This document shows, in pieces, positions 10,685 through 45,556 of a stretch of 64,000 nt of DNA (its first letter is position 1; each line of letters starts with the position of its first letter). Source of the stretch: Methanofollis liminatans DSM 4140 (GTDB lineage Archaea > Halobacteriota > Methanomicrobia > Methanomicrobiales > Methanofollaceae). The translations under genes and the position numbers were made by a program. Location: NCBI RefSeq assembly GCF_000275865.1, contig NZ_CM001555.1, forward strand, positions 124,001 through 188,000. Reading direction: 5' to 3'. The notes beneath the pieces are model-generated. The model did no database searches. It saw nothing but the letters and a program-made list of their open reading frames with translations, and was not told where the DNA came from.

Positions 10685-11185
10685 TCAGAAGGAGTACGGC
10701 AGGCGCTCCCCCGCCTCGCGCTCGTCGTACGGGGTGCCGTTCTCCTTGTAGGTCTTCATCACGAACTGGGTCGTCGTCTCCCTGATCCGGTCCATCGGGG
10801 CGATATGCTCGGAGACGAAACGAGCGATCTCCTGCATGTTCTTCCCCTTGACCAGGAGGATGAAATCGTACCGGCCCGAGACCAGGCGGAGGGCCCTGAC
10901 CTCCCTGAAACGCGCGATCCGCTCGGCGATCTTGTCGTAGCCGAAGTCCCGCTCGGGGGAGACCTTCAGGGCGATGATCGAGCTCACCTCGTCCCTGCCG
11001 GCGCGCTCCCAGTCGACGACGGCGGCGTACTTCCTGATGATCCTGGCCTCTTCCATCGCGCGGATCCGCCGTTCTACGTCTTCGACCGTGAGCTCTACCA
11101 TCGTCGCCAGTTCGCCGGGAGGCACCTGGCTGTTCTCCTCCAGGAGATGGAGGATTAAGAGATCTTTTTCGTCCATTGTCATCAC
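10685..11185 (-). CDS. Lrp/AsnC-family transcriptional regulator
   Basis: A DNA-binding regulator responding to small molecules, usually amino acids. The 166-residue product has an N-terminal winged helix-turn-helix (residues ~5-55, beginning MDEKDLLILHLLEENSQ) and a C-terminal RAM ligand-binding domain (~75-150, with GRYDFILLVKGKNMQEI). Its start overlaps the orc1 stop by four bases. It sits between orc1 and an aminotransferase, so it probably controls that aminotransferase or reports amino-acid supply; this is inference from context. The true start may be the ATG at 11176. Confidence 0.92.
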   Translation of the reverse strand: MMTMDEKDLLILHLLEENSQVPPGELATMVELTVEDVERRIRAMEEARIIRKYAAVVDWERAGRDEVSSIIALKVSPERDFGYDKIAERIARFREVRALRLVSGRYDFILLVKGKNMQEIARFVSEHIAPMDRIRETTTQFVMKTYKENGTPYDEREAGERLPYSF

Positions 11186-12465
11186 CGGAACGAGGCCCTC
11201 AGGCGGTTGAGGTCGACCTGGGCAAGGCGGTCCTCAGAGAGTCTGGGATCCTTCGCGAGTACTTCCTGTATCTTTTTGGTGTTGGTGTCAAACCACATCT
11301 CTTTTGTCCTTCCGTACCGCCCTTTGGAGACGACCCGGGTGTTGATCACCCCGAGCATGTTCAGCTCGGAGATCAGGTCGGTGATCCGGCGGTGGGTGAG
11401 GGGATCGATGTCGACGATCCGGCTGACGTCCCGGTAGACCCGGGTCACCTCGCCTGAGGTGAAGATCTTCTTGTCCATCTCCTCGAGCAGGAGCATCGAG
11501 TAGAGGACGACCTTGCTCTGGGTGGGCAGGGTCGAGATGCACTCGATCATCGAGTCGGTCTCGATCTTCTCGAGGGCCATGCGGACGTGCTTCTCCCCGA
11601 CGCGCTCGGCGTTCTCCCTGTCGGCGAGTTCGCCCGAGACCCGCAGGAGGTCGAGGGCACGCCGTGCGTCGCCGTGCTCCTGCGCGGCGAAGGCGGCGCA
11701 GAGCGGGATGACACCCTCGTCGAGCCCGCCCTCCATGAAGGCCATCTGGGCGCGCTGGGTGAGGATGTCGCAGAGCTGCGGGGCGTTGTACGGCGGGAAG
11801 ACGATCTCCTCCTCTGAAAGGGAGGAGAGGACGCGGGGGTCGAGGAAATCAGTGAACCGGAGGTCGTTGGAGATCCCGATCATCGAGACCTTCGACTGCC
11901 GCAGGTCCGAGTTGATCCTGGTGAGGTTGTACAGGGTCTCGTCCCCGCTCTTCTTCACCAGTTTGTCGATCTCGTCGAGCACGATGACGAGCACCCCGCC
12001 GGCCGCCTCGAGCTGGTTTTTCAGCTCGGTGTAGACCTGGTCGGTCGGCCACCCGGTCATCGGGATGTGGGCACGCGCCTTGTCGCTCGGGGTGGCGTCG
12101 ATATCCTCGAGCCCTTTGGCGATCTGGGCGAGCACCCGGTACTGGGTGTCGATCACCTCGCAGTTGAGGTGGACGACCTTGCACCCGGTGGACATGCTCG
12201 CGGCCACCTTCTCGAGTTCTGCCCCGACATACCTGACGCTCGCGGTCTTGCCGGTCCCGGTCTTGCCGTAGATCAGGATGTTCGAAGGGGTCTCGTTCTT
12301 CAGGGCCGGGGCGAGGATCGATGCGATCGCATCGATCTGGGGACGACGGTGGGGGAGGATCTGGGGACGGTACGAGTGGCGGAGAACCTCCCGGTTTTTG
12401 AAGATCCGGTTGTTCGAAAGGAACTTCTGGAAGAGGCCAAAGGATGGATTTTCGTTCTCAGACAT
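11182..12465 (-). CDS. orc1: Orc1/Cdc6 replication initiator
   Basis: The archaeal origin-binding AAA+ ATPase, which recognises ORB elements and loads the MCM helicase. The 427 residues show a Walker A motif IYGKTGTGKTASV (~residue 68), a Walker B motif VIVLDEIDKL (~150), sensor 1 region GISNDLRF, and a C-terminal winged-helix domain from ~residue 330 (VTRVYRDVSRIVD). It is transcribed away from the 661-bp region holding three ORB elements, the classic arrangement of an archaeal origin. It is translationally coupled to the lrp gene downstream. Confidence 0.96.
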   Translation of the reverse strand: MSENENPSFGLFQKFLSNNRIFKNREVLRHSYRPQILPHRRPQIDAIASILAPALKNETPSNILIYGKTGTGKTASVRYVGAELEKVAASMSTGCKVVHLNCEVIDTQYRVLAQIAKGLEDIDATPSDKARAHIPMTGWPTDQVYTELKNQLEAAGGVLVIVLDEIDKLVKKSGDETLYNLTRINSDLRQSKVSMIGISNDLRFTDFLDPRVLSSLSEEEIVFPPYNAPQLCDILTQRAQMAFMEGGLDEGVIPLCAAFAAQEHGDARRALDLLRVSGELADRENAERVGEKHVRMALEKIETDSMIECISTLPTQSKVVLYSMLLLEEMDKKIFTSGEVTRVYRDVSRIVDIDPLTHRRITDLISELNMLGVINTRVVSKGRYGRTKEMWFDTNTKKIQEVLAKDPRLSEDRLAQVDLNRLRASFR

Positions 12466-12534
12466 GGTATCAGCCGCGGGTGTTGAGGGGGTTCGGGTGG
12501 GCAGGAATAGAGATCATGTGGGGTGTGGAGATAT

Positions 12535-12556
12535 AACCCCTTTGTTTCCACTGGAG
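12535..12556 (-). repeat. Origin recognition box (ORB 1)
   Basis: On the minus strand this reads CCAGTGGAAACAAAGGGG followed by TT, an almost canonical euryarchaeal ORB with its G-string. It lies 70 bp upstream of the orc1 start, so it could serve both in initiation and in autoregulation of orc1. Confidence 0.85.
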
Positions 12557-12626
12557 TATGCTTATAAAGGTGATCAGGAGGTCGAGAAAAAAACCCGGAT
12601 CCATCGAGATCCATGCCGCGAACCGG

Positions 12627-12646
12627 GACCCCTTTATTTCGACTGG
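12627..12646 (-). repeat. Origin recognition box (ORB 2)
   Basis: On the minus strand this reads CCAGTCGAAATAAAGGGG, the ORB core with two changes, in the same orientation as ORB 1 and 92 bp from it. Weaker half-matches follow at ~12676-12694 and ~12709-12718 (TTATCCACTGG). Confidence 0.8.
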
Positions 12647-12655
12647 AGCATGTGG

Positions 12656-12735
12656 AAAACAGGTGACCTGTTTTTCTTTACCACAGTGAAAACAGCTTGT
12701 TGTAGGGTTATCCACTGGTACTATAAATCTTCTCT
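12656..12735. other. AT-rich stretch, possible duplex unwinding element
   Basis: About 80 bp distinctly richer in A and T than the surrounding DNA, with runs such as TTTTTCTTTA and CTATAAATCTT. It lies between ORB 2 and the GATC array, where an unwinding element would be expected. This is inferred from composition and position. Confidence 0.5.
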
Positions 12736-12995
12736 GATCTCAGGACAGGGATCGCGATCGATCGCGGATCCCGATCAGGAAGATCAGGGCAGATCGCGAC
12801 CGATCGCGATCCCGCGATCAGGGGAGAGCGCGGATCCGGGATCAGAACGATCCGGATCAGGGCGATCAGAGCAGATCGCGATCCCTGGATCAGGGAGGTG
12901 TACAGATCCGGGATCAAAACGATCGAGACCAGAACGATCCAGGATCAAAGTCCAGGATCAAAACCGGCGATCGCCTTCAAGGTGCAATCGGGATC
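12736..12995. repeat. Dense GATC array (27 sites in 260 bp)
   Basis: I counted 27 GATC tetramers between 12736 and 12995, where about one is expected by chance at this base composition. They occur in degenerate units such as CCGGATCAGG, GCGATCGATCGC and GATCGCGATCC at irregular 4-20 bp spacing, with no single repeated unit and no coding potential. The array lies inside the candidate origin between the oppositely oriented ORBs. Confidence 0.9.
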
Positions 12996-13026
12996 CTCAC
13001 TCTTCCTCCCATTCCGTTTCCACCCG

Positions 13027-13047
13027 TTCCAGTCGAAACAAAGGGGT
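13027..13047 (+). repeat. Origin recognition box (ORB 3), inverted
   Basis: This reads CCAGTCGAAACAAAGGGG plus flanks on the + strand, opposite in orientation to ORBs 1 and 2. It closes the candidate origin on the moaB side. Confidence 0.82.
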
Positions 13048-13126
13048 CGGGGATCGCGCCCTCCCCTCACCCCCGCGGCACAGGAGATATCATAGGGTAA
13101 GAACAACACAGGAAGAAGGAGAGACC

Positions 13127-13615
13127 ATGAAACAGGAGCATCTCAGGGAGATCGAGATTAAGACGGCGGTGATCACCGTCTCCACCACGCGCACCGAGGA
13201 GACCGATACGAGCGGACGGGCGATCCGCGACCTGCTCGCCGGGGCGGGTTTTCAGGTGAGCGTTTCGGCGATCGTGAAGGACGATATCGGGGCGATCCGC
13301 TCGATTCTTGCCCGGACTCTGCCCGAGGCGGATGCGGTGATCTTCAACGGAGGGACCGGACTCACCCCTGACGACTGCACCATCGAGGCGATCGAACCCT
13401 TCTTCGAAAAGAAGATGGAGGGGTTCGGCGAGCTCTTCAGGATGCTCTCGTACGGGGAGATCGGGACCTCGGCCCTGCTCTCGCGCGCGGCCGCGGGGAT
13501 TGCCGGTGGAAAAGCGATCTTCTGCATCCCGGGATCGACGGGGGCGGTAAAACTCGCCACCGAACAGATCATTCTGCCCGAACTCAGGCACATCATCTCG
13601 CACGCGCGGGGATAA
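13127..13615 (+). CDS. moaB: MoaB/MogA-family molybdopterin (tungstopterin) biosynthesis protein
   Basis: This family adenylylates molybdopterin before insertion of molybdenum or tungsten, needed for example by formylmethanofuran and formate dehydrogenases. The 162-residue product shows the signature NGGTGLTPDDCTIEAI and the TTRTEETDTSG loop. The start at 13127 is set by GGAAGAAGGAGAGACC directly upstream; an open frame continuing back to 12278 runs through the origin and has no coding character. No other cofactor gene is adjacent. Confidence 0.92.
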   Translation: MKQEHLREIEIKTAVITVSTTRTEETDTSGRAIRDLLAGAGFQVSVSAIVKDDIGAIRSILARTLPEADAVIFNGGTGLTPDDCTIEAIEPFFEKKMEGFGELFRMLSYGEIGTSALLSRAAAGIAGGKAIFCIPGSTGAVKLATEQIILPELRHIISHARG

Positions 13616-37605: not shown

Positions 37606-37883
37606 CGGCTCACCCTGCCGTATCCTGGCTGTTCTGCGAGAGGGCTCCTGTACGGTGCCGGTCCGCGGGGGGACGGGCGCGGGATCTGCATACGACCTGA
37701 CTCCATGTGACTCTATCCTGGATGTGCTGATGGAGAGATGATCGCGGGGAAGTATATGTCTTGTCGAAATAGGCTATAGTCCCTCTATAGTTATCCGGCG
37801 GGCTCCGGCCCCGTTCGCTAATGCTAAATTCTCTCAAACCAAACTACCCTGGGTTCAAAAAACCAGCAGAGCGCAGATTTACC

Positions 37884-38807
37884 ATGGCGAAGGCCGAAGC
37901 ACGACCGTTTCTCAAGTGGGCAGGCGGAAAGACCCAGCTCCTCGATGCATTCACCGGACGGATCCCGGAGGGACTGGCCGACGGCGAAATCTCCACCTTC
38001 GTGGAGCCGTTCGTCGGCGGGGGTGCGGTGTTTTTTCATTTCAATACCCTCTTCCCCTTTGAGAAATGCCATATCTTCGACGTCAACGAGGAACTGGTCC
38101 TCGCGTACACCGTCGTCAAGAGGGACGTGGACGCCCTCATCGAGGACCTCTCCGGCCTCGCCGGCGAGTTCCTGGCGCACGACGACGAGGGGCGGCGGGA
38201 TTATTTTTACGCCCTCCGCACCGAGTTCAACCGGACGAAGCAGGATATCACCTTCAAACGCTACGGGAAGGCGTGGATCTCACGGGCGGCCCGGCTGATC
38301 TTCCTGAATCGGACCTGCTATAACGGTCTGTTCCGGGTGAACTCCCGGGGGGCGTTCAACGCCCCCTTCGGGCGCTACAAAAACCCGCGGATCGTGTACC
38401 CGGAGGTGCTGCGGGCCTGCGCCGCGGCGCTGGAGAACACCGAGATCCATCACGGCGACTTCGAGCGCTCGCTCAGGTACATCGATGAAAAATCCTTCGT
38501 CTACTTCGACCCCCCGTACCGCCCCCTGAGCGCCACCGCCTCGTTCACCGGGTATGCGAAGGGGGGATTCGACGACGCCGGGCAGGAGAGGCTCGCCGCC
38601 TTTTTCGCACGGTGCGACCGGCGGGGGGCGAAGGCGATGCTGAGCAATTCCGACCCGAAAAACATCGACCCGGACGACGATTTCTTCGACCGCCTCTACG
38701 CGAAGTTCACGATCGAGCGGGTGCCGGCCCGGCGGATGATCAACTCGGACGCGAGAGGGCGGGGAGAGATCACCGAGATCGTCGTCACGAACTATCCGGG
38801 CAGGTGA
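37884..38807 (+). CDS. dam: Dam-family DNA adenine N6-methyltransferase
   Basis: A D12-class (alpha-type) adenine methyltransferase of ~307 residues. The AdoMet motif is FLKWAGGKTQLL at the N-terminus, the region FVEPFVGGGAVFF follows, and the catalytic motif IV is DPPY in FVYFDPPYRPLSATASF (~residue 215). This class includes EcoDam and DpnM, which methylate GATC; specificity here is inferred from family only. The ATG at 37884 starts the conserved part; an ATG at 37821 would add 21 residues. No restriction endonuclease is recognisable next to it, so it looks like an orphan methylase. Confidence 0.88.
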   Translation: MAKAEARPFLKWAGGKTQLLDAFTGRIPEGLADGEISTFVEPFVGGGAVFFHFNTLFPFEKCHIFDVNEELVLAYTVVKRDVDALIEDLSGLAGEFLAHDDEGRRDYFYALRTEFNRTKQDITFKRYGKAWISRAARLIFLNRTCYNGLFRVNSRGAFNAPFGRYKNPRIVYPEVLRACAAALENTEIHHGDFERSLRYIDEKSFVYFDPPYRPLSATASFTGYAKGGFDDAGQERLAAFFARCDRRGAKAMLSNSDPKNIDPDDDFFDRLYAKFTIERVPARRMINSDARGRGEITEIVVTNYPGR

Positions 38808-39372: not shown

Positions 39373-39668
39373 ACGCCACACTCCGCCTGGGCTCGGACGA
39401 TGCCCTGTACCTGCTCATCGGGTCGATGCGCTACCGGATTGCCGCCGAGGACCTGCGGGCCCTCCTCTTCTACGGCCGGGCCGTCCCGGTGACCGGGGAG
39501 GGGGCGGCGATCGTCGGCCACGCCGCCGTGAACGCCGCCGGCCGGGCGGTGCAGGTGTTCACGCCCAGGGGCCCCTTCATCGTGCCCCTGGTGAGCTTCC
39601 GCCGGGTGGTCACGGGAGAGGCGGCCTCGGCGCCGCTCTTCCCGCTCGTGCCGGGGGGATCCCCGTGA
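39369..39668 (+). CDS. Small uncharacterised protein, second gene of primase operon
   Basis: A 99-residue protein with no recognised domain, predicted mostly beta-stranded (LYLLIGSMRYRIAAEDLRAL, then GRAVQVFTPRGPFIVPLVSF). ATG overlaps the previous stop by four bases, and its own stop overlaps the GTG of the primase-helicase gene. Tight coupling on both sides supports a real gene in a three-gene operon. Confidence 0.62.
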   Translation: MNATLRLGSDDALYLLIGSMRYRIAAEDLRALLFYGRAVPVTGEGAAIVGHAAVNAAGRAVQVFTPRGPFIVPLVSFRRVVTGEAASAPLFPLVPGGSP

Positions 39669-42418
39669 TCGGGGCTGCCCTCGCCGCCCTGTTCCGGGAG
39701 GGGGACGTGGTGGAGGTGCGGGCGCTCGCCGACCGCTTCACGCACTCGGGCTACTTCGACGATCTTTCACGGCTCGCCGCGGCGGCGGCCGCCCTGGACG
39801 CCGACCCGGAGGTGCGGGGGATCTACGTCACCTTAAACGAGGTGAAGCCCGCCCTCCTCGCCCGGCGGGCAAACCGGGTGAAGATGCGGCTGACCAGGAG
39901 CGATCCCACCACCGCCGACGCCGACATCGTGCGCCGGCGCTGGCTTCCCATCGACCTCGACCCGGTCAGGCCGAGCGGGGTCTCGTCCACGGAGGAGGAG
40001 CACGCGGCGGCATTGCGCAAAGCGGACGAGATCGCCCTCTGGCTTTCTGAGCGGGGGTTTCCCGCCCCGATCCGGGCCGACTCAGGGAACGGGGCGCACC
40101 TGCTCTACCGGGTGGACCTCGAAAACGACGACGGGGGGCTGGTCAGGGGGGTGCTCGCCACCCTCGACGCGTTGTTCTCCGATGAGCACGTCACCGTGGA
40201 CACCGCCAACTTCAACCCCGCCCGGATCTGGAAACTCTACGGGACGTGCTCACGGAAGGGCGACCACACCCCCGAACGCCCGCACCGGCGGGCGCGGCTC
40301 CTTTCGGTGCCCGGGGAGGTGGAGACGGTGCCGGTCGACCTCCTCGGGCAGATCGCCGCCCTCCTCCCGAAAGACGCCCCGGCCCCGCCCTCGAAAGGGA
40401 TCGACCTTGCGGCCTGGCTCTCCGAGCACGGGATCCCGGTCCGGAGCAGAAAACCCTGGCAGGGCGGCACCCTCTTTGTCCTGGACGACTGCCCGTTCTC
40501 CACGGCGCACCGCGACGGCGCCTTCGCGATCCAGTTCCCCTCGGGAGCGGTCTATGCCGGGTGCCACCACGCCAGCTGCGGCGGCGGGGTGCAGCGCTGG
40601 CCCGAGATGCGGGCGCGGCACGAGAAGAAGAAGGAGGAGGTGCCGCCCCCTCCTCCTCCTCCCCCTTCGCCCGACCCTGCCGCCAGGGAGCGGGCGATGG
40701 AGATCCTCGCCCGCGGCGACCCCCTCGCCTTCCTCCTGGACACCTTCAACCGGGAGCACGTGGGCGACCGCACCGTCGCCGAGTGCCTGGCGATCTCGGT
40801 CGCCTCGCAGTCGGTGGAGAACACGAACGGGCTGCACGTCGCCATCTCGGGCAACTCCGGGAAGGGGAAGAGTCACGCCTGCACGGCGATGCTCGCCCTC
40901 CTCCCGGAGACGGCCAGGCTCACGGGCACCGTCTCGAACAAGGCGCTCTACTACCACGACAGCCTGCAGCCCGGCACCGTCCTCCTCTTCGACGACGTCT
41001 CCCTCTCCGACGACCTGCAGGAGGTCCTCAAATCCGCCACCGCGAACTTCAGGGAGCCGATCGAGCACCGCACCGTCACCGCCGACCGGAAACTCCAGGT
41101 CTGCCGGATCCCCGAACGCTGCGTCTGGTGGCTCGCGAAGGTCGAGGACCCGGGCGACGACCAGGTGATGAACCGGATGCTCACGGTCTGGATCGACGAT
41201 TCGCGAGAGCAGGACGAGCGGGTGCTCGCCCACATGAAGGAGGCGGAGGCGGTCGGGCCGTCTTTGGGAGAGGACGAGGACGTGCTCACCGCCCGGGCGC
41301 TCTGGGAGGCGGTCAGGGAAGAGGTCCTGCCGGTCCGCATCCCGTTTGCGAGGGCCATCCACTTCTCGGCGGCGCAGAACCGCCGGAACCCCGGCATGCT
41401 CTTCGACCTGATCAAGTGTCGCGCCCGCCTTTTCTTCCTCCAGCGGGAGCGCGACGGTGAGGGCCGGGTGCTCGCGTCCCCGGAGGATTTCGCCGCGGCG
41501 GCCCGGCTCTACGGCAGCCTGAACGGGACGGCCGGCGGGCAGGAGACGAAGCTGACGAAGAACGAGGCGGCGGCCCTGGAGACGGTGGCGGCGATGGGGT
41601 GGGCGGAGTTCACGGTCAAAATGCTCCAGGAGGCGCTCGGGCTGTCGTACCACCAGACCCGCCGGATCCTCCACGGCTACATGAGCCGCGGGGAGACGTA
41701 CTCGGGCCTCCTGGAGAAGTGCCCGGCGGTGAGTTACGTGGACGCAACAGTCCTGGATGAGGGGGAAGGCTACGCGGTCCGCCGCCGGCAGCACATCTTC
41801 TCCTTCGACCCGGAGAGGTACCGGCGGTGGGCACGCGGTGCGGCGGTGTGGATCGATGGGGGCGGGGACCGGGACGACGGTCCCGGGGGCGGCGATCCTT
41901 GCAGCATTGCAGCAGGTTTTCAGCAGCATTGCAACACCGACCGCGAGGATCGAAAGGCCGGGAAACGCCTCCGTTCTGACAGTAACAGTACAGACAGAGA
42001 GACGCGTCTATCTCTCAGTACGAAAGTACAGCAGATCACGAACACACACACCCCTGTCGGTTCTGGTGCGGGTGTGGGTGGGTGTGGGTGCGATCCCCGG
42101 AATGCTGCAAACGATCCCGGTATATCTGATGCCCGTGCCGAAAATCTGGATCAGGCGCCAATTTCCCCTCCTGTGGGTGACGGCGCCTGCTGCAACGTGC
42201 TGAAAAGAGCTGGAAAGATCGGGCCTGTGCTGCAAGAGTCCCTGCCGGGCGTCCTGGACCACCGGGAGTTCGCCCGCGTCTCGACCGCTCTGGGGCGCTG
42301 CACGGGATGCGGGGAGGGGCGGGCGGTGTTTCGGTCGGCTGACGGGCGGGTGCGGTTGTGCGAGGGGTGTTATGGGCGATTGGTCCGGGCGTGGAATGCG
42401 GGGGAGGGGGTGGGGTGA
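39665..42418 (+). CDS. Plasmid/virus-type primase-helicase (AEP primase + ATPase)
   Basis: A 917-residue replication protein. Residues ~1-240 resemble an archaeo-eukaryotic primase domain, with the acidic pair in WLPIDLDPVRP (D97, D99) and SGNGAHLLYRVD. A zinc-binding segment follows (CPFSTAHRDG...GCHHASC, ~280-310), then a charged/proline linker. A P-loop ATPase domain has Walker A SGNSGKGKSHA (~396) and Walker B VLLFDDVSL (~440). Residues ~740-870 are low complexity and the C-terminus has a four-Cys zinc finger (CTGC...CEGC). Such proteins initiate replication of integrative plasmids and viruses. GTG start, coupled to the upstream small gene. Confidence 0.85.
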   Translation: MIGAALAALFREGDVVEVRALADRFTHSGYFDDLSRLAAAAAALDADPEVRGIYVTLNEVKPALLARRANRVKMRLTRSDPTTADADIVRRRWLPIDLDPVRPSGVSSTEEEHAAALRKADEIALWLSERGFPAPIRADSGNGAHLLYRVDLENDDGGLVRGVLATLDALFSDEHVTVDTANFNPARIWKLYGTCSRKGDHTPERPHRRARLLSVPGEVETVPVDLLGQIAALLPKDAPAPPSKGIDLAAWLSEHGIPVRSRKPWQGGTLFVLDDCPFSTAHRDGAFAIQFPSGAVYAGCHHASCGGGVQRWPEMRARHEKKKEEVPPPPPPPPSPDPAARERAMEILARGDPLAFLLDTFNREHVGDRTVAECLAISVASQSVENTNGLHVAISGNSGKGKSHACTAMLALLPETARLTGTVSNKALYYHDSLQPGTVLLFDDVSLSDDLQEVLKSATANFREPIEHRTVTADRKLQVCRIPERCVWWLAKVEDPGDDQVMNRMLTVWIDDSREQDERVLAHMKEAEAVGPSLGEDEDVLTARALWEAVREEVLPVRIPFARAIHFSAAQNRRNPGMLFDLIKCRARLFFLQRERDGEGRVLASPEDFAAAARLYGSLNGTAGGQETKLTKNEAAALETVAAMGWAEFTVKMLQEALGLSYHQTRRILHGYMSRGETYSGLLEKCPAVSYVDATVLDEGEGYAVRRRQHIFSFDPERYRRWARGAAVWIDGGGDRDDGPGGGDPCSIAAGFQQHCNTDREDRKAGKRLRSDSNSTDRETRLSLSTKVQQITNTHTPVGSGAGVGGCGCDPRNAANDPGISDARAENLDQAPISPPVGDGACCNVLKRAGKIGPVLQESLPGVLDHREFARVSTALGRCTGCGEGRAVFRSADGRVRLCEGCYGRLVRAWNAGEGVG
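41899..42235. repeat. Iteron-like TTGCAGCA repeats inside the primase-helicase gene
   Basis: The octamer TTGCAGCA occurs twice in direct orientation (41899, 41907) and three times inverted as TGCTGCAA (42103, 42188, 42228). The 11-mer GCAGCATTGCA is repeated at 41901 and 41923, exactly 22 bp apart, two helical turns. They fall in the low-complexity coding stretch. A GT-rich run (~42067-42091) lies between the direct and inverted copies. The layout recalls iterons at a plasmid origin inside its own rep gene. Confidence 0.55.
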
Positions 42419-42424
42419 TTTCTC

Positions 42425-45400
42425 TTACCCGATCACCATCTTATTCGCCCGGACAAACAACCCCGGCGGCATCGGGCGGTCGAGTTCCCAGAGGATGCTC
42501 ATGGGGCGACTGCCTTCATGGGAGAGATAGCGTGCTGCTCCAAGGAATATGTATGGCTCTGTTATTTGTCCGACCTTCTTGAACTCCCGGACAAATAACA
42601 GGACCTTGCTTCCTCTCTCTTCATGGTGGATGTAGCGCTCTCCTACCGGCGACGACGCAGATGTGGTGCTCTGCGATTGCCAGTGGAAGAGGGATTCGGA
42701 GACGGCGTAGTCCATGTACATCGTGGTGGGCGAGTAGTGTTCCTCGGTCTTGTTAAGCGTGATGAAGAAGGCATCGATGTTTTTGTCGCGGAGATAGAGC
42801 ACGCCCTCCCGACTCCCCTGTGAGGGTTTATTGTGCAGGGTGTAATGACCGAGAGCAGAGAAGATCTGGTCTCGGGTATAGGTGCAATGCACTTCCAGCG
42901 GAGCATCGAATCCCAGATCGATCGACTCCGGGATAAATTCGAGGTGTTTGAAGGTATAGTCCAGAAGATCGGAGATTTCGTCTTTGATCCATGGATTGTC
43001 AAGGATCCCTTCGAACAGAGAGCCACTATCCATTGCCGCGGTTGATACCGGCGCATCGAAGATGGAGTAGTAGAAGAGCGTGAGCATGTGGCGCTCGCCC
43101 TCGGAGAGATCGTCATACGAACGCCTGCGTGGATCGTCCAGAAGAGCCTGGATGAACTGGATCAATCGTGGCGAGTCGATCGTGCAGAGGCGGAGTGCGG
43201 CGGTCCGTGTGAACGGGGAGTCCGATCCGGTGTGCTGATAGACCCCGGCCCGGCAGGCCAACGCATAGAAGGTATCCTTCTGATAGACCTCTCTCGGCGT
43301 CAACGAGTGATACTCGATAAAATTTTTAAATGTCAGCGGTTTGCCGGTCCTCTCTTCAAACGTGCGAATATTGTCGATCAACGACGTCCGGGTGGTAATC
43401 GAGGAACGGATGTTCTCAAGGATCCGCTCTTGGGCGACCTTTTCGAGATGAATATGGCATCCCTTGGGGAGATCAAATGTGTTGTCTGCAACCTGCATAA
43501 GGAGCGGTCTATCGCTTGTCGAGAGCAATGCCGTTATTTTGTCGCCGAACCGATAGTTTGCATGATGCCGCCCTACAAAGTCGAGCACTGTGAGGCATTC
43601 TTTTCCCTCTGAAATCCTCAGACCCCGCCCGAGTTGCTGTAAAAATATCGTTAGGCTCTCTGTTGGACGGAGGAAGAGGATCGTGTTCACTTCAGGGATA
43701 TCGACCCCTTCATTGTAGAGATCAACAACAAAGATGAAGTGGATCTCCCTTGATATCAGGCGGTTCTGGATGGAGAAGCGCTCTTCGTGCGGACTGTTGG
43801 CATGGAGATATGCCGATGGGATGCCTGCTTTAGTGAAGGATTCTGCCATATACGCTGCATGATCGACAGAGACGCAGAACCCAAGACCGATGGTATCGTC
43901 GATGTCGGCGATGTATTCTTGTAAGGCCACCACGATCCGTTCAGCACGCTTTGTATTCCCGGTGTAGAGGGCATTGAGTTCGCTGGGATTATAGGCGCCA
44001 CACCGCCAGGATACGGCGTCGAGATCGACCACATCGGTCACGCCAAAATAATGAAACGGTGAGAGAAGTTTCCGGTTGATCGCCTCGGGCAACCGGATCT
44101 CTGCGGTGATGCTCCCGTTGAAATACTGGAGGATATCGAGTCCATCCATGCGTTCAGGGGTCGCTGTAAGTCCGACGAGGACTCTTGGTGTATAGTATGA
44201 TAGAAGGCGCTGATAGGACGGTGCCGCTGCATGATGGAACTCGTCGATGATGATCACGTCATAATAGTCTGGTCGTGTACGTTGGATCAGGTCTTTGCTG
44301 TTGAGACTCTGGATGGAGGTGAAGAGATATTCGATCTGGGCGGGTTGGTTTTTCCCGACCAGGAGGTCGCCGAAATTGGGGTCTTTCAAAACGCCTCTGA
44401 ATACGTTGATGCTCTGCTGGAGGATCTCCTCACGGTGGGCGACAAAGAGGAGGCGGGGGTAGTGTCCCTGTTCTGAAGCGAGATCTTTGTAGTCGAATGC
44501 AGATATGGCCGTTTTTCCGGTGCCGGTTGCTGCGACGATGAGGTTTTTGAAATTATTATGGTATTTTCGCTCTGCTTTTATCTGTTCGAGGATCTCCTTC
44601 TGGAAGTGGTAGGGATGGATATCAAATACGGGGATGATCCCTGGTTCTTTCTTCGTCTCTTTTGAGAGCGCTTGTATGAGGAGGTCTCTGCTCGCATCGG
44701 TGTAGGTGACAAACTCCGGGTCGTTCCAGTAGGTCTCAAATGTCGCATCGATCTTTTTTAAGATGTGGCCTGAGTCCTGCTGGGTTACCTTCACATTCCA
44801 TTCCAGACCGCTGGTGACCGCCGGGTTTGAGAGATTCGACGAACCGATATATGCGGTGGAGAACCCGTTTCTCCGGTGAAAGATGTAGGATTTTGCATGG
44901 AGCCGGGTCCGTTCGGTGTCGTATGATATTTTTACGGTGGTGTTTTGGAGGCGAGAGAGCACCTCAACTGCTTTTATCTCGGTTGCGCCGGTGTAGGATG
45001 TGGTGATGACCCGGAGGGTGCCGTGCCGTACAAACTCTTTGAGTTCGTCGAGGATCAGGCGGATGCCACTCCATTTGATGAACGAGATGAGGAGATCGAT
45101 CTGGTCGGCACTGTTGATCTCCTTTTTGAGTTCATATACGAGTCCTGGTTCTTGGGGCGATCCGGTGAAGAGACTGCTCTGAGAGATGGAGGTCTCTGGT
45201 CGGGGTAGGCTCTGTGGGTTCAGGGCGGTGGATTGGTCTGGGTCGAGGATGGCGAGTAAGAGTTCGGCGTCCTCGGTGATTTTACATTGATGGAGGCAAT
45301 TTTCATCGATCTCGTCGGCAAGGTGAGAGATGACGCCGTTGCAGATGGCGATTTGATCTGCCAATGACCGGTTTTTATCTTCTGCTGTCCTGAGGGCGTT

Positions 45401-45556
45401 TTCCGTTATTGTGCGAATATAGCGGGACAGAATGGCCTGCGGGTCATAGTGCCTTATGGTATCTCTGAAGGGTTTTTGATCTGGTCTGAGGGAGGAGAGT
45501 TTTGATTGGAGGTATTCGTTTATTACCTGTTCATAGATTCCTGGAAAAAGGTCCAT
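42425..45556 (-). CDS. PLD-nuclease / SF2 helicase protein (DUF3427 type)
   Basis: A 1043-residue protein. Residues ~140-300 form a phospholipase-D-type nuclease domain with HAKSYIF and the companion GSSNLSNP (one HKD half-site, so a dimer may form the active site). A DEAD/DEAH helicase core follows: Walker A AATGTGKTAISAF (~343), DEFHH (~437), TATPERMDG, and motif VI QLGRGLRISEGK. The C-terminal ~350 residues match the DUF3427 region. This architecture is frequent in defence islands and is thought to cut or remodel foreign DNA. It has lower GC than the preceding genes. It is divergent from the XRE gene. Confidence 0.85.
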   Translation of the reverse strand: MDLFPGIYEQVINEYLQSKLSSLRPDQKPFRDTIRHYDPQAILSRYIRTITENALRTAEDKNRSLADQIAICNGVISHLADEIDENCLHQCKITEDAELLLAILDPDQSTALNPQSLPRPETSISQSSLFTGSPQEPGLVYELKKEINSADQIDLLISFIKWSGIRLILDELKEFVRHGTLRVITTSYTGATEIKAVEVLSRLQNTTVKISYDTERTRLHAKSYIFHRRNGFSTAYIGSSNLSNPAVTSGLEWNVKVTQQDSGHILKKIDATFETYWNDPEFVTYTDASRDLLIQALSKETKKEPGIIPVFDIHPYHFQKEILEQIKAERKYHNNFKNLIVAATGTGKTAISAFDYKDLASEQGHYPRLLFVAHREEILQQSINVFRGVLKDPNFGDLLVGKNQPAQIEYLFTSIQSLNSKDLIQRTRPDYYDVIIIDEFHHAAAPSYQRLLSYYTPRVLVGLTATPERMDGLDILQYFNGSITAEIRLPEAINRKLLSPFHYFGVTDVVDLDAVSWRCGAYNPSELNALYTGNTKRAERIVVALQEYIADIDDTIGLGFCVSVDHAAYMAESFTKAGIPSAYLHANSPHEERFSIQNRLISREIHFIFVVDLYNEGVDIPEVNTILFLRPTESLTIFLQQLGRGLRISEGKECLTVLDFVGRHHANYRFGDKITALLSTSDRPLLMQVADNTFDLPKGCHIHLEKVAQERILENIRSSITTRTSLIDNIRTFEERTGKPLTFKNFIEYHSLTPREVYQKDTFYALACRAGVYQHTGSDSPFTRTAALRLCTIDSPRLIQFIQALLDDPRRRSYDDLSEGERHMLTLFYYSIFDAPVSTAAMDSGSLFEGILDNPWIKDEISDLLDYTFKHLEFIPESIDLGFDAPLEVHCTYTRDQIFSALGHYTLHNKPSQGSREGVLYLRDKNIDAFFITLNKTEEHYSPTTMYMDYAVSESLFHWQSQSTTSASSPVGERYIHHEERGSKVLLFVREFKKVGQITEPYIFLGAARYLSHEGSRPMSILWELDRPMPPGLFVRANKMVIG

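Follow-up and report, generated by a model that had tools for sequence, protein, structure and literature searches.

We identified a dense array of GATC sites inside the predicted chromosome origin of Methanofollis liminatans DSM 4140. The array lies in the 64,000-nucleotide stretch of DNA analyzed here (the window), which spans bases 124001-188000 of the genome, a single contig of 2,475,100 bp. We favor a model of an Orc1-ORB origin with a core that is methylated at the adenines of GATC, the methylation in turn gating initiation, and we consider this model probable, though well short of certain. Comparison of genome sequences provides the predicted anatomy of the origin, the array and its uniqueness, its conservation throughout the genus, and the distribution of candidate enzymes. 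The features of the origin locus, with their coordinates in the window, are as follows:

11182 to 12465, minus strand: orc1/cdc6 initiator gene (427 aa; NCBIfam NF001625 ORC1-type, 607 bits against a cut-off of 501)
12536 to 12560, plus strand: ORB1, ACCCCTTTGTTTCCACTGGAGTATG, a direct repeat shared by 11 Methanofollis genomes and also conserved in Methanoculleus
12628 to 12652, plus strand: ORB2, ACCCCTTTATTTCGACTGGAGCATG, a conserved direct repeat
12655 to 12676, no strand: near-perfect palindrome GAAAACAGGTGACCTGTTTTTC, adjoining ORB2 and read from the sequence
12677 to 12735, no strand: AT-richer conserved block, AACAGCTTGTTGTA ... ACTATAAATC, near-invariant in 11 genomes of the genus
12736 to 12995, no strand: GATC array of 27 sites, filling the ORB2-ORB3 interval
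13028 to 13047, minus strand: ORB3 core, TCCAGTCGAAACAAAGGGGT, an inverted repeat that is 95% complementary to ORB1
13128 to 13615, plus strand: MoaB-like gene, the far-side border of the interval (open reading frame; family name from reading the translation)

The original prediction described three ORBs, two in one orientation and one opposite, and this arrangement held up. ORB1 and ORB2 run in the same direction and are 88% alike. The intergenic region extends from the orc1 start codon to the start of the MoaB-like gene at 13128. A noncoding region beside orc1/cdc6 and several ORBs in opposed orientation, two features of Orc1/Cdc6-ORB origins, are both present, and we predict that the Methanofollis chromosome has its Orc1-ORB origin here. 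Orthologues of orc1 are 91-99% identical in all members of the genus with a fully readable gene, and the best named relatives are Methanofollis MAGs at 95 and 92% identity. The AT skew flips sign at the orc1 locus (-0.031 on the right arm, +0.038 on the left; p = 5e-5), at a coarse resolution that spreads the best-scoring origin positions over about 100 kb or more to either side. The GC skew gave no signal at this locus. Replication presumably initiates at the orc1 locus.

Downstream of ORB2, the palindrome is followed by the short AT-richer block, the GATC array, and then the inverted ORB3. The ORB2-ORB3 interval has a GC content of 56% in the window. Its AT-richer part is confined to 12677-12735, a block that likely serves as the remaining unwinding segment, and the rest is GATC array.

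An exact count confirmed the 27 GATC sites that had been reported within 260 bp (12736-12995), and there are 32 in 12466-13126. The accompanying estimate of about one expected site agrees with base composition (1.1 per 260 bp) but not with the genome mean. The genome is GATC-rich, averaging 2.99 sites per 260 bp in a sample of 40 evenly spaced stretches of 20 kb (800 kb, one-third of the genome). The maximum outside the array in this sample was 13 per 260 bp, inside a coding-looking stretch. The array exceeds the genome mean about 9-fold and the next densest sampled place 2-fold. A whole-genome pattern search located three GATC sites within 20 bp at 70 places. Five of these belong to the array, and outside the array never more than two such triplet places occur together. 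Both the sample and the pattern search bear out the suggestion that the array stands out from the rest of the genome, with no equally high density found elsewhere. As far as searched, no second array of this kind was detected in the chromosome. The genus has further orc1/cdc6-like loci, and these lack an array.

We asked whether sister species carry the array, a question on which the original prediction depended. A family-level search provided 12 genomes (G000 to G011), all from one genus. The region upstream of orc1 is readable in 11 of these, whereas in G007 a contig end interrupts it. All 11 have a GATC array after ORB1 and ORB2. In 10 of the 11, an inverted ORB follows on the far side of the array, and the G010 contig ends inside the array. 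ORB1, ORB2, the palindrome, and two nearly invariant elements, AACAGCTTGTTGTA and CTATAWAT, are likewise present in every readable genome. The palindrome, which changes at its center from genome to genome, is a candidate binding site; in Methanoculleus, another palindrome occupies this position after ORB2.

The intervals range in length from 211 bp (cut) to 1025 bp. They contain 27 GATC sites in G000, 30 in G011, 11 in G009, 31 in G003, 86 in G008, 57 in G002, 19 in G010 (cut), 61 in G005, 61 in G001, 54 in G004, and 63 in G006. GATC makes up 20-39% of the interval bases (11 genomes, 11-86 GATC each), and peak density is 10-13 GATC per 100 bp, except in G009 (7) and the cut G010 (8). The best 260 bp of G009 contain 13 GATC, compared with 25-33 in the remaining genomes with a fully read array, and the G009 array is still about 14-fold over the base-composition expectation. 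We found no excess of decay relics (GATC with one mismatch) in G009. Separately, the start of a G002 contig (C1, 114-177) contains several copies of a short repeat, GATCGTCGATCAGATC.

Subclades have no more than about 4% of array 12-mers in common, indicating that spacers turn over while motif density stays. Such stable density in sequence that has itself been replaced is difficult to account for unless the motif is under selection. We also evaluated site-by-site GATC conservation and rejected it as evidence, as the apparent effect was largely reproduced by a spacer-shuffled control in distant pairs. Only the alignment-free argument for conservation was kept, because the aligner itself lines up GATCs in the shuffled control.

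A candidate enzyme for modifying the array has its gene in the window, 25 kb away from the origin:

37821 to 38807, plus strand: Dam/DpnM-type D12 adenine methyltransferase, predicted to be GATC-specific (Pfam D12, 215 bits)

This Dam-family gene matches NCBIfam TIGR00571 dam with 279 bits against a cut-off of 115, and the solved structures closest to its product are those of DpnM, at E 2e-52 (2dpm), and of E. coli Dam, at E 3e-37 (2g1p). A nearby gene (39665-42415) codes for a 917-aa protein with no Pfam match. It is followed by a helicase gene (42428-45556) with ResIII, PLD-like and DUF3427 domains, which starts a 20-kb stretch of lower GC content (0.46-0.54) that may be a genomic island carrying a defence gene.

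Within the genus, Dam/DpnM-type enzymes at 70% identity or more occur only in G000, G003 and G011; G002 has an additional, distant D12 enzyme (34% identity). Eight genomes (G001, G002, G004-G008 and G010) code for an intact, apparently orphan DpnA-like enzyme (PF01555). Its gene sits between hxlB-like and ferredoxin-thioredoxin-reductase (FTR)-like genes, named from reading their translations, and in G000, G011 and G003 hxlB and FTR are adjacent with no methyltransferase between them. No DpnII domain was found among the tested neighbors of the Dam-type gene, and none was evident beside the DpnA-like genes. The closest plasmid relatives of the DpnA-like enzyme are second methyltransferases of DpnII-type operons, including that of Lactococcus plasmid pSRQ700, and the third gene of these operons codes for the DpnII endonuclease (Pfam PF04556). 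In pneumococcus, DpnM and DpnA both act on GATC, DpnA on single-stranded DNA (PMC3573125). We predict from its relatives that the DpnA-like enzyme is GATC-specific. The best solved-structure match of this 290-aa protein is CcrM, and we considered a CcrM-like GANTC specificity. Two observations make this less likely: a midpoint-rooted tree joins the protein to DpnII-operon enzymes and separates it from CcrM, and the arrays consist of GATC.

G009 retains only a DpnA remnant that lacks approximately residues 131-257 and has a broken frame, though this genome is one 88%-complete MAG and the remnant could be an assembly error. No Dam match was found in G009. A tree of orc1 plus hxlB places G009 beside G000 and G011. 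The simplest history is that an ancestral DpnA-like enzyme was lost on the side of G000, G011, G009 and G003, with a Dam-type replacement in G000/G011 and in G003 but not in G009. Ten readable genomes combine a GATC-type enzyme with a strong array, and the one without an enzyme (G009) has the weakest array.

We extended the comparison to about 76 other Methanomicrobiales loci upstream of orc1, none of which has a comparable GATC array. A search of these loci for arrays of other methyltransferase motifs (palindromic 4-, 5- and 6-mers) also revealed nothing comparable. With one exception, the 34 loci outside the genus with an ORB-delimited interval have 0-5.7 GATC per 260 bp at 22-57% GC. The exception, upstream of orc1 in Methanoculleus sp. 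FWC-SCC1 (L040), has 8 GATC in 218 bp between ORBs (9.5 per 260 bp), an intermediate density that perhaps reflects an early or independent array.

Candidate enzymes are distributed more widely than the array. Among 28 genomes outside the genus, 22 have a strong Dam-type match and 4 a strong DpnA-like match, never both strongly, and in the remaining 2 a methyltransferase is lacking or doubtful. This alternation appears to be a swap, across the order, between two unrelated enzymes that are both predicted to act on GATC. An array is missing from most Methanomicrobiales outside the genus that carry a Dam or DpnA enzyme, and GATC methylation would therefore have another role there, or none at the origin. 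Because the alternation extends to the 28 genomes outside the genus, GATC methylation probably arose early in the order, whereas the array at the origin is probably a Methanofollis addition.

We propose that the ORB2-ORB3 interval became a dense GATC array that has been kept as the target of an orphan methyltransferase. The acting enzyme would be Dam/DpnM-type in the window genome and DpnA-like in most sister species. The sites of the array are presumably methylated, and replication would leave 27 or more of them hemimethylated together. Joint hemimethylation would mark the origin as just replicated, and the marked state would delay or block new Orc1/MCM loading until remethylation. Gating of origin firing by the methylation state is a reasonable expectation because clusters of orphan-methyltransferase motifs at origins have been published (PMC4752239). 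The original prediction invoked E. coli oriC, with re-initiation controlled by Dam methylation and SeqA. The SeqA half of this analogy fell away when SeqA (PF03925) was found in 0 of 12 Methanofollis genomes, with a positive E. coli control. The methylation state would have to be read by a mechanism without SeqA.

An alternative that we regard as considerably less likely is that the array is a methylation-dependent unwinding element that replaces AT-rich DNA, with gating by DNA stability and no reader protein. N6-methyladenine weakens pairing; full methylation would make a GC-balanced interval meltable, and hemimethylation would do so to a lesser extent. The array occupies exactly the ORB2-ORB3 interval of relatives, which is often AT-rich (24-39% GC in Methanolinea-like loci), and the interval is 44-57% GC in Methanofollis genomes with an enzyme. 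The G009 interval, which has the fewest GATC, is the most AT-rich of the genus (41% GC). The absence of SeqA from the 12 genomes searched also fits gating without a reader. However, Methanoculleus intervals are mostly 45-56% GC and have no array, and therefore a GC-balanced interval evidently can work without one. In addition, the AT-rich block at 12677-12735 could serve for unwinding on its own.

We find it more doubtful still that GATC forms the core of a site bound by an origin protein, either Orc1 or a chromatin protein, independent of methylation and with a coincidental link to the methyltransferase. A binding platform would be expected inside the origin, where the array lies, and start-to-start GATC spacing peaks at 6-8 bp and shows multiples of this at 14 and 21, a pattern that tandem duplication may have caused. 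Yet the conserved unit is a bare 4-bp palindrome without fixed flanks or spacing, which suits a methyltransferase better; the bases flanking GATC differ between genomes and yield no extended motif. Also at odds with a platform of this kind, the genus has kept one GATC-type enzyme through a swap of unrelated types, and the array is weakest where the enzyme is missing. Finally, recent tandem duplications (a 72-bp period in the window, others in G001 and G010) might suggest neutral expansion of short repeats that happen to contain GATC, but this is highly improbable: repeat units differ by lineage and are nonetheless all GATC-dense, GATC alone is enriched among palindromic tetramers (500 copies in 6.1 kb; CCGG is next with 52), the array occupies the same place in 11 of 11 genomes, and the whole-genome search did not find many arrays at unrelated places.

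How archaea, with their Orc1/MCM machinery, prevent premature re-initiation is poorly known. With its tens of GATC sites inside an Orc1 origin and its persistence across the exchange of methyltransferases, the Methanofollis array would provide a strong sequence-level case for the control of archaeal replication by DNA methylation and for convergence with E. coli. We are evenly divided on the broader proposal that an archaeal lineage evolved a methylation-gated origin independently of the gammaproteobacteria, with a GATC array that replaces the unwinding interval, is read without SeqA, and was kept through an enzyme swap. The genus offers natural contrasts among Dam-type, DpnA-type and enzyme-less species. 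The two reviews of archaeal replication searched do not mention methylation, and they fit the earlier statement that a GATC array is absent from described archaeal origins. Among open-access journal papers, we found none that joins Methanofollis, methylation and GATC.

We compared the Methanofollis origin to known systems. E. coli oriC contains 11 GATC sites in about 245 bp and likewise pairs a GATC cluster at the origin with a Dam-family enzyme. The density in Methanofollis (10-13 per 100 bp) appears considerably higher than in oriC, and the Methanofollis origin differs in its use of Orc1 and ORBs instead of DnaA and in the absence of SeqA. Both Methanofollis enzyme types resemble the two methyltransferases (DpnM and DpnA) of DpnII/LlaDCHI restriction-modification systems. 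Unlike those systems, the Methanofollis enzymes are found alone, and the neighbors examined include no DpnII-type gene. A survey of Methanomicrobiales describes HG3, a persistent GATC orphan methyltransferase that it reports for 15 of 19 genomes from this order (PMC10609329), and the Dam-type gene in the window very probably belongs to HG3. The passages found in the survey report neither an origin array nor a DpnA-like substitute, and the array described here is restricted to Methanofollis among the Methanomicrobiales examined.

Clusters of GATC at origins are known from gammaproteobacteria. The closest precedent comes from a study that described four cases of orphan-methyltransferase motif clusters at origins (PMC4752239). 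In Haloarchaea, the region upstream of orc1/cdc6 contains CTAG clusters whose presence is linked to an orphan m4C methyltransferase (Blow et al. 2016, PMC4752239, Fig 6D). The earlier statement that a GATC array is absent from described archaeal origins did not take into account these CTAG clusters, which come close. Methanofollis shows one feature of such clusters, a dense noncoding cluster at orthologous origin positions in all 11 readable genomes. The two systems share an archaeal Orc1-linked noncoding region and a cluster of a motif for a predicted orphan methyltransferase, and within Methanofollis the strength of the array fits the presence of an enzyme. They differ in motif and predicted modification (GATC and m6A in Methanofollis), in enzyme family, and in taxonomic order. 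The Methanofollis array is further set apart by its placement between ORBs and its survival through a swap of two unrelated enzymes. Clusters of methyltransferase motifs at origins are thus already known, and the Methanofollis array represents a new and extreme form.
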